This document shows positions 906 to 5,767 of a stretch of DNA of 6,412 nt, one piece after another. Positions within the stretch are counted from its first letter, which is position 1. Every line of letters starts with the position of its first letter. Origin of the DNA: Acidithiobacillus sp. (GTDB lineage Bacteria > Pseudomonadota > Gammaproteobacteria > Acidithiobacillales > Acidithiobacillaceae). The stretch is taken from positions 1 through 6,412 of the forward strand of contig DAIAVG010000082.1 in NCBI GenBank assembly GCA_027445725.1, written 5' to 3'. The notes below the pieces were generated by a model. The model did no database searches and had not been told where the DNA came from. It was given only the letters and a program-made list of their open reading frames with translations. Made by a program: the position numbers and the translations under genes.

Positions 906-1218
906 GTAAACTCGCAGGAGTTTCTGGGCCTTTGCGTAGAGGATAGCCACGCGTGGTAGCCTTATGTGCTTGGCGTCAAGGTGAGCGCTGCCAACGCCTA
1001 GCACAGCAATCTCCTCGTTAGCGCACGGGCCTTCCACGGGAATCCCTATGATAGCCAAACCCTGCACGAGCAACTGGAACAGAGTGCTATCCTGATCCAG
1101 GATGTCAGCACCCCGCCAGAGCAGGTCTTCGTCGCTCTGGGCTATCGGGTCGGGGATGCGAACAATCCTGCCGCTCATATAATCCACGAAGGCAAGCAAG
1201 CACAAAGCCTCAGCGGCC
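906..1218 (+). pseudogene. Decayed IS5-family transposase fragment
   Basis: Plus-strand translation recovers the middle-to-C-terminal catalytic part of an IS5-family DDE transposase. From 963 the frame reads PYVLGVKVSAANA, stop (999-1001), then HSNLLVSARAFHGNPYDSQT and LHEQLEQSAILIQDVSTPPE, QVFVALGYR and HIIHEGKQ. These match the family pattern PYEFGVKVS, GNPYDGHTL, LEQ..L, VFVDLGYRGVDADNP, IIHRGK. The expected D of VDLGYRG is A here, and GVDAD is VGDAN. In-frame stops at 957-959 and 999-1001, a short deletion before 960 and a likely one-base slip near 935 break it. Weaker similarity to the KLYxLHAPEVEC segment goes back to about 906. The N-terminal half and the C-terminal approximately 80-100 residues are missing. 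It is an inactive fossil, facing the cus operon. A 142-codon frame on the opposite strand (792-1220) is its antisense shadow. Confidence 0.78.
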
Positions 1219-1287
1219 ATAGGTGTAGGTGTTGCAGTACGGCATTTTCTGCCATCTCCTAAGTTTCAGGAATCGCCTTCTGCTCAT
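1210..1287 (-). pseudogene. Truncated start of a Tat-exported protein gene, next in the cus operon
   Basis: On the minus strand, 18 bp after the cusA stop, AAGGAG (complement of 1294-1299) stands 6 bases before an ATG at 1287. The frame opens MSRRRFLKL, an exact match to the twin-arginine consensus S-R-R-x-F-L-K. A hydrophobic stretch should follow, but the frame continues RRWQKMPYCNTYTYGR and stops at 1210-1212. The signal is therefore lost after about codon 9, and the remaining sequence abuts the IS5-family fossil. Tat signals of this kind are found on periplasmic multicopper oxidases of copper-resistance loci and on other cofactor-bearing enzymes; which one this was cannot be told from nine residues. 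The 25-codon product is probably non-functional. An alternative is a chance small frame, but the strong ribosome binding site, operon spacing and motif together argue against it. Confidence 0.55.
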
Positions 1288-1293
1288 CTCATT

Positions 1294-1299
1294 CTCCTT
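1294..1299 (-). promoter_or_regulatory. Ribosome binding site of the truncated Tat gene
   Basis: The minus strand reads AAGGAG, 6 bases before the ATG at 1287 and 6 bases after the cusA stop codon. It shows that translation was meant to continue past cusA. Confidence 0.6.
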
Positions 1300-1305
1300 G
1301 TAGAA

Positions 1306-4300
1306 CTACCGCAAGCCTAATCTCCGCCGTTGCCAAAGCGCATACAATGCAGGAATCACCAATAGTGCCAGGAGCGTCGCGCTGAACATGCCGCCAATCA
1401 TCGGCGCGGCAATCCGTTTCATCATGTCGGCACCTGTGCCATGGCTCAGCATAATGGGCAAAAGTCCTATCACGACCAAGGTAAATGTCATCGCTAATGG
1501 TCGCAGACGTAGCATTGAGCCCTCAATAATCGCAAGTTGAAGATCGTGCCAATTGTTTAACGAATTTCGCATCTGATGCTTTACCAGTGCCTGATCCAGG
1601 TACAGTAGCATCACCACACCGAATTCCACTGCGACGCCCGCGAGAGCGATAAATCCAACGGCGACTGCAACCGATAGTTTATAGTGTAGCGCATAAACCA
1701 ACCAGAGACCTCCCACCAGCGCAAATGGTAATGTCACTAATATGATAGATACCTCGGCCCAGCGACGAAAATTGAGATAGAGAAGCAGCACAATCACCAA
1801 TAGTACGGCGGGAATCACCAACATCAGACGTTGCTCCGCCTTTTGCATGCTGCGATATTCTCCGACCCAGGAAAGTGTGTATCCGGCGGGAAGATGAACC
1901 TGAGAAGCAATTGCCCGTTGTGCCTGACGCACATAACTGCCGATACTCGTCCCTGGCTTTAGATCAATGGTGATCCAGGTATTCAGGCGACTATTGTCGC
2001 TAGTCAACATGGAAGGGCCATTTTCCAACGTGATCCGAGCCACCTGCGCCAATGGAATTTGCGCCCCACCGGGCGTTGCAATGCGGCTCTCGAGGAGAGT
2101 CGCAAGGGATTGCCGTAGTCGCCGAGGATAGCGCAAGTTCACTGGAAACCGCTCTACCCCCTGCACCGCCGTAGTAATGACCTGCCCTCCTACGGCAGTA
2201 GAAACCAAGCGATTCACATCTGCTATGGAGATCCCGTAGCGCGCTGCGGCGCGTCGGTCCGTATGCACGACGATGTAGCGACCACCAGTGACACGAGTTG
2301 CATATGCGGAATCTGTATGCGGGACGCCCAGTAAGACCTTTTGTACTTCCTGACCCAATCGGTTCAGCGTGCCAAGGTCTGTGCCGGTAATTTTTATCCC
2401 CAGCGGAGTTTGCAAGCCCGTGGTCAACATATCGACTCGGCCCTTGATCGGCTGGGTCCAGTTGTTTGTGAGGCCAGGAATTTGCAGGGCGGTATTCATC
2501 AAGTTCTGCAAATGATGCTGGGTCATACCGGGCGGCCAATGATCCGGGCGCCTTAGCGTTACCACCGTATCAAACATGGAGATGGGTGACTGATCGGTCG
2601 CAGTTTGCGCTCGACCCGCCTCCCCAAATACGCTCTTTACCTCAGGGAATGTCTTGAGAATCCGGTCGGTGAGTTGTAGCAGCGCGCCCGCTTCGCCATA
2701 GGAGATCGCCGGGTTTTGCGCGACGGGCATATACAGCAAGGTGCCCTCATCGAGGGGAGGCATCAACTGGGTACCAAGACGCTGCCACGGATAGACCAAG
2801 CTGGCGGCCAGCAGGGCAGACACTAACAGGACCAGCCAGGGGAACTTCAGGACGCCGCGAATCATAGGCTGATACAGAGCTACCAGCCATCGGTTAATTG
2901 GGTTTTTTCGCTCTGCGGGGATATGGCCGCGAATAAACCATCCCATGAGGATGGGAACCAAGGTGATGGAAAGTATGGCCGCTGCGGCAATGGAAAAGGT
3001 TTTAGTATAGGCGAGCGGTGCGAAGAGTTTCCCCTCTTGTCCCGTTAGGGCAAATATGGGAAGGAAGGAAATCGTAATGATCAACAGTGAAAAAAACAGC
3101 GCAGGCCCCACCTCCAAGGCAGCCATTTGCGCACTATGCCATGGGTTCGCCTCAGCCTGCCGTTCAAGATGCTTATGCATATTCTCAATCATGACGACTG
3201 GCGCGTCGACCATCACTCCAATGGCAATGGCAATTCCGCCCAGCGACATGATATTCGCCGGAATATCGAGCCAATACATAATGACGAATGCAACCAGTAT
3301 ACCCACGGGCAGTGCGATGAGCGCCACCAAGGCAGAGCGAACCCGAACCAAAAACAGTAGGGCGACCAAAGAGACGGCAATCATCTCTTCGAGCAATTTG
3401 CCGGTCAGAGTGCCAATACTTCGTTGGATGAGCGGACGCTGGCTGTACGTGGTAACTACCTGCACTCCCTTGGGCAGGGCGGGGCGAATTTCTTGCAGCT
3501 TTTGTTGAATGCGCTGAATCAGGGCATTGGCATTGCCATTTTGATTCATCATGACGATACCACCGACTACCTGACCCTGCCCATTGAGATCGGCGATACC
3601 GCTCGGCAATACCGGGCCCAGTTGAACGCGGGCCACCTGACCGATGGTGATCGGAACGTCATTGGCGACGGTCAAGGGAGCCTGTCGTAGATCCTGTAAT
3701 GAATGGATATAGCCCGAGGTACGCACAATGTAACGGGCCCCGCCCATGTCCACGACCGAACCGCTGGTCTCACCATTGGCAGCGCGAATTGCGGCTTCCA
3801 CTTGCTCCAGCGTCAATCCATATGCCAACAACCTGTTAGGATCCACGACGACTTGATACTCTTGAGTCATACCTCCTACAGTGGCCACCTGAGCGACTCC
3901 AGGGATACCTTGCAAAGCAAATTTCAGAAACCAGTTCTGCAGTGTCGTGAGTTGGGCGAGATTCAGGGTGCCCGAGGGATCCGTCAGAGCATATTCATAA
4001 ACCCAATCGACACCGGAGCTGTCCGGACCCAAGGCTGGGGATACGCCGGGGGGTAGCTGCGCCTGCGCCTGATCCAGATATTGCAACACTAGGTTTCGCG
4101 CCTGGAAAATATTCGTCCCATTCTTGAACAGCACATAAACGTAGGAGTCGCCAAACATCGAGTATCCGCGCACCGCTTGTGCACCGGGCACCTCTTGCAG
4201 CGTGGTTTCGAGCGGATAGGTCACCTGATCCTGGACAATCTGGGGAGCTTGTCCAGGGTAGCTGGTTTTCACAATGACCTGGGTTGGAGAGATATCGGGA

Positions 4301-4416
4301 ATGGCTTCCAGGGGAATGTATTGCAGGGCCAGAATCCCGGCAACGGTGACGAATAGCATAGCCAGCAACACCATAAATGGGTTGTTCATACACCAACGTA
4401 TCGTGGCTTTAATCAT
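1306..4416 (-). CDS. cusA: Cu(I)/Ag(I) efflux RND transporter, CusA-type
   Basis: The inner-membrane, proton-driven pump of a CusCBA system, 1036 residues against 1047 in E. coli CusA. It has the HME-RND layout: TM1 (about 12-32), a periplasmic half with SYPGQAPQIVQDQVTYPLET (52-71), TM2-TM6 (about 340-495), TM7 (about 527-541), a second periplasmic half, then TM8-TM12 (about 866-1027). The copper site methionines equivalent to E. coli M573, M623 and M672 are present as M563 (LLYMP), M614 (SPISM) and M663 (VDMLTTG), which supports Cu(I)/Ag(I) rather than Zn/Co/Cd. TM4 GVMVDAPVVMIEN holds D404 (E. coli D405), and E931 matches E939. Leucine 974 stands where E. coli has proton-relay K984. Relay methionines M390, M402, M409, M491 and M999 are kept, but the equivalents of M271, M486 and M755 are L270, I476 and V746. 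The ATG lies inside the end of cusB (8-bp overlap), implying coupled translation. The E. coli comparison is from memory of that sequence. Confidence 0.95.
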   Translation of the reverse strand: MIKATIRWCMNNPFMVLLAMLFVTVAGILALQYIPLEAIPDISPTQVIVKTSYPGQAPQIVQDQVTYPLETTLQEVPGAQAVRGYSMFGDSYVYVLFKNGTNIFQARNLVLQYLDQAQAQLPPGVSPALGPDSSGVDWVYEYALTDPSGTLNLAQLTTLQNWFLKFALQGIPGVAQVATVGGMTQEYQVVVDPNRLLAYGLTLEQVEAAIRAANGETSGSVVDMGGARYIVRTSGYIHSLQDLRQAPLTVANDVPITIGQVARVQLGPVLPSGIADLNGQGQVVGGIVMMNQNGNANALIQRIQQKLQEIRPALPKGVQVVTTYSQRPLIQRSIGTLTGKLLEEMIAVSLVALLFLVRVRSALVALIALPVGILVAFVIMYWLDIPANIMSLGGIAIAIGVMVDAPVVMIENMHKHLERQAEANPWHSAQMAALEVGPALFFSLLIITISFLPIFALTGQEGKLFAPLAYTKTFSIAAAAILSITLVPILMGWFIRGHIPAERKNPINRWLVALYQPMIRGVLKFPWLVLLVSALLAASLVYPWQRLGTQLMPPLDEGTLLYMPVAQNPAISYGEAGALLQLTDRILKTFPEVKSVFGEAGRAQTATDQSPISMFDTVVTLRRPDHWPPGMTQHHLQNLMNTALQIPGLTNNWTQPIKGRVDMLTTGLQTPLGIKITGTDLGTLNRLGQEVQKVLLGVPHTDSAYATRVTGGRYIVVHTDRRAAARYGISIADVNRLVSTAVGGQVITTAVQGVERFPVNLRYPRRLRQSLATLLESRIATPGGAQIPLAQVARITLENGPSMLTSDNSRLNTWITIDLKPGTSIGSYVRQAQRAIASQVHLPAGYTLSWVGEYRSMQKAEQRLMLVIPAVLLVIVLLLYLNFRRWAEVSIILVTLPFALVGGLWLVYALHYKLSVAVAVGFIALAGVAVEFGVVMLLYLDQALVKHQMRNSLNNWHDLQLAIIEGSMLRLRPLAMTFTLVVIGLLPIMLSHGTGADMMKRIAAPMIGGMFSATLLALLVIPALYALWQRRRLGLR

Positions 4417-5767
4417 GGGTGCTGCCCCCCATTGCCATCCCTTTCATGCTGGACGCCGCAGGCGTTGCCGGTTGCGCAGCTGTTTTGCTGGGCATTGTAG
4501 ACGCAGTGTTGACCGTCGCGGCGACGTTACTACCTAACATCCGTGCCTGAACGGACTGAAATTGCGACTCCGAATAGAGCAGGAACTGGGCATTCTCGAC
4601 CACTCGCTCACCGGCCTGCAGTCCTTTGGATATTGCGGTCCATCCGTCGGCTTCCGGTCCAAGCTGTACTTGCACAGGCCGAAAATGGCCGCCCGGCTCA
4701 TGCAGCATCACAAAATCCCCTTCCTGGCTGCGGACTATCGCGCTGCTCGGGATTGCGAGCATGCGCTGGGCTTGTGCGAGTAGGGTGGCATCGGCATACA
4801 TTCCAGGGCGCAAGGTGCCGCCTGGATTCGGGAAACTGAGGCGCGCTGTCACAGTGCGACTTTGGCTATTGACGGTGGGGTAGAGAAAGCTCACCCGGCC
4901 ACTCCACGTTTTTCCTGGGTAATCCGGAAGCTGTAGGGTCACCTCGTCGCCTAGGTGTACCCGGGAGAGTTGATATCCATAGAGCGCTACATTGACCCAG
5001 ATACGTTGGAGGTTAGCCACCTGCATGAGGCTGCTCTGTGGGGTGATATACCCTCCTTGCCGGGCTGACAGGCTGTCGATCACCCCGGAAGCGGGCGCAT
5101 AGACAGGGATCACCTTTTCCGCGGCGCCGGTCTGCCGAAGTTGTTGAATTTGCGCATTGGAAAGTCCCAACAACTGCAACTTGGTCTGCGCCGCAGAAAC
5201 CAGACCATTCCCCAGGTCGATTCCGGCGGCTTTTTGCGCTACGAGATAGTCCTGCTCGGCGCTGTAAAGTTCTGGCGAATAAATCTCGGCAATCTTCTGA
5301 CCACGAGATACAGGATCGCCAACGGCTTTGACCGGCAGTTGTTCGACCCACCCGGAAAAGTGTGGATTGATGGCATACAGGCGGTTTTCATCAATGGCCA
5401 CCGTTCCTACGGTATGGATGGCTTGCCCCATCTGTCGTTCCTGGACTGTAACCAGGCGCACCCCCAAGGTTTGAACCATTCGGGAATCGACGGCGAGGCC
5501 TGATGTTGAAGATTGAGCGGTATGGGCAGGCTGAGAATATATTGGAATATATTTCATCCCCATGTTGTCTTTCATCGGATGACTTGAATGAATGGCAGGA
5601 TTCATGGGATTGGCCCAATACAGGATATGCCTAGGGCTTGGTGTGGTGGTCGCGCGCGGAGAGTGCGAACCTACCGTTGGCGCTGGCCACCACAGAGTCA
5701 CGGCCGCTCCAATTCCTACACCGATAAGCAATAGCGCGGAGCCCACCAAAACTTGGCGCGTTTTCAT
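4409..5767 (-). CDS. cusB: Periplasmic adaptor (membrane fusion protein) of Cu/Ag efflux, CusB-type
   Basis: A 452-residue adaptor that links the RND pump to the outer-membrane channel and can pass metal to the pump; E. coli CusB has about 407. Residues 6-27 form an uncleaved anchor or signal segment without a lipobox cysteine. A heavy-metal-binding domain follows (about 48-78: LYWANPMNP, then HPMKDNMGMKYIPIY). M55, M69 and M71 fall where E. coli CusB has its metal-binding methionines; M65 is extra. Next come the lipoyl/barrel-sandwich halves (about 117-167 and 221-257) around a short helical hairpin (168-212), the beta-barrel (258-330, with LRPGMYADATL) and the membrane-proximal domain (335-400). 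An Ala/Thr/Pro linker from 415 ends in SSMKGMAMGGSTHD, a Met-rich tail beyond the usual core. The ATG is set by AAGGAGG upstream and overlaps the stop of the preceding gene by 4 bp (ATGA). Confidence 0.93.
   Translation of the reverse strand: MKTRQVLVGSALLLIGVGIGAAVTLWWPAPTVGSHSPRATTTPSPRHILYWANPMNPAIHSSHPMKDNMGMKYIPIYSQPAHTAQSSTSGLAVDSRMVQTLGVRLVTVQERQMGQAIHTVGTVAIDENRLYAINPHFSGWVEQLPVKAVGDPVSRGQKIAEIYSPELYSAEQDYLVAQKAAGIDLGNGLVSAAQTKLQLLGLSNAQIQQLRQTGAAEKVIPVYAPASGVIDSLSARQGGYITPQSSLMQVANLQRIWVNVALYGYQLSRVHLGDEVTLQLPDYPGKTWSGRVSFLYPTVNSQSRTVTARLSFPNPGGTLRPGMYADATLLAQAQRMLAIPSSAIVRSQEGDFVMLHEPGGHFRPVQVQLGPEADGWTAISKGLQAGERVVENAQFLLYSESQFQSVQARMLGSNVAATVNTASTMPSKTAAQPATPAASSMKGMAMGGSTHD

Follow-up and report, generated by a model that had tools for sequence, protein, structure and literature searches.

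The stretch of DNA analyzed here (6,412 nt; the window) lies at G000:C1:1993765-2000176 within a 2.81-Mb Acidithiobacillus genome and carries on its minus strand the end of cusC, followed by cusB (5767..4409, from the reading frames of the window) and cusA (1306..4416). The cusA gene, whose stop codon occupies positions 1308-1306, is intact: it is an open frame for an HME-type RND pump protein of 1036 amino acids (aa), which the phylogeny below places in the family's X-linked CusA clade. A second cus cluster of the same genome has, by eye, CusF-like and cytochrome b561-like genes after cusA. To the left of the cus operon in the window, a small helix-turn-helix protein, HipB-like by eye, is encoded at 169-480 on the minus strand, beside another frame that leaves the window; by eye, this region is a mobile-element-rich stretch that also has relaxase-like and transposase-like genes.

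Directly 3' of cusA is a short minus-strand frame with its own ribosome-binding site, an arrangement shared with the X family. It consists of a Shine-Dalgarno-like AAGGAG (1294..1299), a spacer of 6 nt (1293-1288), and an ATG at position 1287, 18 nt past the cusA stop, that opens the peptide MSRRRFLKL. These elements, from which the original prediction of a fourth cus operon gene started, are exact in the sequence. The frame (1287..1210) translates as MSRRRFLKLRRWQKMPYCNTYTYGR, with a stop at codon 26. As had also been claimed, the hydrophobic part of a signal peptide is missing: the 25 codons contain no hydrophobic stretch and, by eye, neither an h-region nor a cleavage site. The twin-arginine motif SRRRFLK is present, and the start fits the pattern M-x-R-R-x-phi-phi-K. 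The gene was said to be cut off after about nine codons; the cutoff is real, but the recognizable homology covers eight (MSRRRFLK, 1264..1287), as judged by blastn and by a 24-nt start matrix, and the remainder of the frame consists of unrelated codons until the stop.

Beyond codon 8, no similarity to X was found, and a search for the rest of X in positions 1-1310 of the window gave no match below an E value of 0.06. The methionine-rich stretch and the two beta-beta-alpha repeats that make up the body of X are likewise absent from the window. What follows the stub is about 50 nt of junction DNA (1215..1263, delimited by blastn) and then, on the plus strand, a fragment of an IS5-family transposase with two in-frame stops (933..1214, tblastn). 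The fragment corresponds to residues 294-386 of 481 of an annotated transposase (NC_019369) at 48% identity (E value of 6e-20); given this identity and the two stops, the element is decayed. This middle piece is the only recognizable part; nothing else of the transposase could be located in the window. The 49 nt adjoining the stub are not explained by IS5, which counts against the explanation that we prefer (see below). Within this junction, a stretch of 39 nt (1216-1254) is 88% alike to a part of one frame, recB-like by eye, in a single genome of the same genus (E value of 6.9e-6 for that genome).

Related loci reveal the gene to which the stub belongs. A DNA search with the end of cusA and its flank against 57 genomes gave matches in 30. 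At eight places, six of them among the loci considered here, the alignment does not end with cusA but continues into the beginning of the gene that follows, and so extends about 11 nt into the start of the stub. The original prediction had proposed a search of relatives for cusA followed by a longer frame, and such a frame was found in eight cases among the 30 tblastn rows obtained with the first set of relatives, in which the window is listed twice (L001 and L003). In these eight loci (L005, L006, L007, L009, L015, L016, L022, and L027), an intact frame of 182 to 187 aa starting with M(N/D)RR, here called X, directly follows cusA; in five of them (L005, L006, L007, L016, and L022), it is preceded by AAGGAGAA. 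The stub is homologous to X at the DNA level. Thus, the claim that it is the cut-off start of a fourth, twin-arginine-type gene of a cus operon is borne out, while the expected intact gene of "hundreds of codons" turned out to encode an uncharacterized protein of about 183 aa. At one locus of the same genus (L013, genome G003), X is broken. Other cusA copies in this set are followed, by eye, by a CusF-like, a cytochrome b561-like, or an unnamed frame, and in two genomes from a different family in the same order (L023 and L024), a CopA-type multicopper oxidase gene directly follows cusA, with the starts MVTRRRFLQQ and MHTRRRFLQQ. It seems that the exported protein encoded in the slot after cusA differs from lineage to lineage.

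For the phylogeny of the pump, 50 CusA tblastn rows were collected, of which one lacked the C terminus and three were too short; from the remaining 46, we removed 14 by hand (the same place from another collection, or near-copies), and the C-terminal tree was built with 32 rows. The window CusA falls inside a 13-row clade (support of 99/94) in which X lies directly downstream in 11 cases and is broken in the other 2, namely, the window and G003. Within this clade it forms the deepest branch, at 0.18 changes per column, and the content of the locus before the break is therefore read by parsimony, together with the 24 nt of DNA. A strain that has the 3' flank of the window's cusA and an intact gene was not found among the genomes searched.

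The 24-nt start matrix was derived from 12 different intact or near-intact X-gene starts of 14 loci, some of which are not beside cusA and one of which is the broken X of G003. On this matrix, the stub start in the window scores 19.2 bits, below the lowest of the X starts themselves (25.1 to 37.6 bits on their own matrix). None of 7,199 other ATG, GTG, or TTG sites in five stretches of the same genome reaches this score, the best having 10.4 bits (the window start and exact X starts were excluded, and two of the five stretches overlap by 4 kb). Versions of the stub peptide with random codons reach it in 0.46% of 20,000 trials. Although the comparison covers 24 nt only, these controls, together with the position of the stub relative to cusA, which is that of X in relatives, make it extremely unlikely that an unrelated ATG came to stand behind a Shine-Dalgarno-like hexamer by chance; of the alternatives considered, we regard this as the least probable. 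A more specific alternative is that a CopA-type multicopper oxidase gene once began at the stub, multicopper oxidases being the example that the original prediction gave. The presence of such oxidases directly after cusA in two order-level relatives speaks for it, as does the RRRFL that they have in common with the stub (by eye). However, the two oxidase starts score -5.0 and -6.4 bits on the X matrix, they share 9 to 10 of 24 nt with the window start (13 to 18 for X starts), and their first arginine pair occupies residues 4-5, whereas that of the window and X occupies residues 3-4. Furthermore, the CusA proteins of these two genomes are the most distant rows of the tree. Because random codons so rarely reach the score of the stub, and because the oxidase starts and the control start codons lie far lower, the match is not merely that of a shared Tat motif. 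With both its CusA and its start-codon DNA grouping with the 183-aa gene, the protein lost from the window was probably not a multicopper oxidase, and we give this alternative little chance.

Alternatively, the 25-codon frame could be a working small gene or leader peptide. A good ribosome-binding site and start codon remain, and the frame may still be translated, with no sign of function; in a search of 28 other genomes of the family, however, its tail gave nothing but short matches, of which that to the recB-like frame (39 nt) is the longest. The tail also runs into the decayed transposase relic, and the frame lacks any hydrophobic stretch. We find this reading slightly less credible than that of an oxidase start. 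Since the body of X is absent from the window, the stub is a gene relic and not a working member of the family. Our preferred explanation, which we consider very likely, is that the frame is the dead 5' stub of X, the fourth gene of a cusC-cusB-cusA-X copper efflux operon, the remainder of which was lost by rearrangement. The ribosome-binding site and eight codons would have been kept, and about 175 further codons would have been lost; on the far side of the rearrangement, there is now the decayed IS5-family transposase fragment. Comparison with relatives shows the loss of the body of X; the order of events is what we infer.

The G003 genome offers a second case of loss. Over 6,335 bp, its cus cluster and that of strain YTS05 share 96.7% identity, and the match stops about 90 nt into X (L072, about 7853-7942). 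By eye, X in G003 has a frameshift at its start, upstream of the break, and the break is adjoined by an IS-like relic that resembles the start of an IS3-type orfA. Elsewhere in G003, only a distant X relative was found. The G003 break is independent of that in the window, and on this reading X next to cusA was lost at least twice in the genus. The genome of the window itself has two intact X copies (C1:2003897-2004442, 3.7 kb past the end of the window, and C1:2046241-2046786) and one distant relative (38% identity over residues 65-175). Each intact copy is preceded by the gene for a Crp-like regulator and by a short frame resembling DUF2892 (names by eye). The two cassettes (L065, G000:C1:2002876-2004527; L066, G000:C1:2046156-2047863) are 95 to 97% alike in their matching pieces and apparently represent a duplication; in L065, the match is interrupted at its regulator end by about 1.1 kb of sequence that includes a transposase-like frame (by eye).

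In relatives, intact X encodes about 183 aa: the M-x-R-R start is followed by a methionine-rich stretch and then by a predicted two-repeat beta-beta-alpha domain. His and Met residues are among those that are invariant. A protein search gave 149 relatives; among the 120 listed, those named by their source are called "hypothetical" or "uncharacterized protein," with one exception, a "predicted lipid-binding transport protein." Distant relatives (<60% identity) occur in 12 plasmid records, where they have either no annotation or that of a hypothetical protein. Intact X matches no Pfam or NCBIfam model above the cutoff, no solved relative was found by sequence, and X was not mentioned in the literature that we searched; the Figure 3 legend of PMC5328820 names "hypothetical protein" genes in copper clusters, and these may include X. 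Of the 69 relatives used for structure modeling, 62 were counted for the twin-arginine start (7 short ones were excluded): an arginine pair lies within the first 12 residues in 60 of these full-length sequences, and the fuller motif RR-x-phi-phi is present in 56. A hydrophobic stretch follows the arginine pair (by eye). Such a start is typical of Tat export, the route that X would take. A conserved GPM motif was found in 66 of the 69 sequences, and about 30% of the 25 positions in front of it are methionine. The AlphaFold model based on the 69 sequences (mean pLDDT of 77) shows two repeats, each a beta-hairpin plus a helix, at residues 73 to 172, while residues 11-42 are below a pLDDT of 50; among the solved structures compared with the model, none stands out.

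The distribution of X is patchy, with relatives in 21 of 115 genomes by protein search: 12 genomes, all of the same family (12 of its 29 genomes), have relatives with at least 73% identity, and the remaining 9 have only relatives with 30 to 38% identity. Because of this patchiness, and because many cusA copies of the family are followed by other genes, X is not an obligatory part of the pump. A scan of a separate contig collection (genome_contigs) gave 63 loci of X relatives. The CusA C terminus is encoded just upstream of X in 18 of them, and a 19th has a short piece of cusA; the estimated distance from the end of the CusA alignment to the X start is 26 to 60 nt in 16 loci and 389 nt in 2 (L108 and L109). 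Among the sources of loci of this type are Acidithiobacillus sulfurivorans, A. marinus, A. concretivorus, A. montserratensis, strain YTS05, Thiomonas, and Burkholderiales. An intact X extends cusCBA in part of the Acidithiobacillaceae and in Thiomonas-type genomes. X precedes cusCBA in a Halothiobacillus metagenome-assembled genome (MAG). Raw tblastn counts for the flanks of the 63 loci, many of which have a short flank, are 20 for CusA, 10 for a CopB-like ATPase, and 10 for metallo-beta-lactamase-fold proteins. A Pfam check of X neighbors (18 proteins from 17 loci) identified a SCO1/SenC protein in one Acidiphilium locus and an ArsR-rhodanese protein in one Acidocella locus. At L126, L127, and L128 (two Acidiphilium loci and one Proteobacteria MAG), the X relative stands right after a metallo-beta-lactamase-fold gene. 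The metallo-beta-lactamase-fold neighbors hint that X may serve some process other than copper efflux, such as sulfur metabolism. This mixed gene context outside cus operons weakens a purely copper-related reading of X, and with metallo-beta-lactamase-fold and rhodanese genes nearby, a copper role is not certain.

In comparison with known systems, X resembles CusF of the CusCFBA system in that it is also small, probably exported, and encoded with CusCBA. CusF is a barrel, whereas X has a predicted alpha+beta repeat domain, a twin-arginine start, and a methionine-rich stretch; lacking a Pfam or NCBIfam match above the cutoff, it shows no likeness to CusF by sequence and may at most be related to it at the level of the fold. 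With the multicopper oxidases CopA, CueO, and PcoA (TIGR01480), X has the twin-arginine start in common, and these oxidases take the place after cusA in the two order-level relatives. However, X has about 183 aa and, by Pfam, no Cu-oxidase domains; in the window, no gene body remains. The full-length relatives of the lost gene form a hypothetical-protein family (with members in, for example, Acidithiobacillus concretivorus and Acidithiobacillus sp. YTS05), of which the window keeps only the first eight codons. As for the breakage, a section of PMC5328820 describes the second Cus-like operon of A. ferrooxidans ATCC 23270, a member of the same bacterial family, as interrupted by a transposase gene; going by that section, the likeness is that of a cus operon broken by a transposase gene, and the break in the window is in the fourth gene.

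With respect to function, we infer from these features that X may be coproduced with CusCBA as a partner that binds Cu(I) in the periplasm and would buffer copper or pass it to CusB/CusA, the task that CusF has in other cus operons. In the genome of the window, this task, if needed, would fall to the two intact copies elsewhere. It is conceivable, if somewhat short of probable, that the CusCBA pumps of acidophiles and Thiomonas-type bacteria have in X a fourth component so far without a name: a methionine-rich copper chaperone, exported by Tat and with a fold unlike that of CusF, which stands in for CusF in these operons and has been repeatedly lost through mobile elements, with copies elsewhere serving as a backup. 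As a gene relic, the stub is ordinary; its interest lies in the uncharacterized CusCBA neighbor that it reveals, a conserved unnamed gene that several proteobacterial lineages, including metal-leaching organisms, have beside the gene of a well-studied copper pump. Natural strains with and without X beside cusA provide a ready comparison. Should X deliver copper to the pump, a missing part would be supplied to those cusCBA operons that lack CusF.
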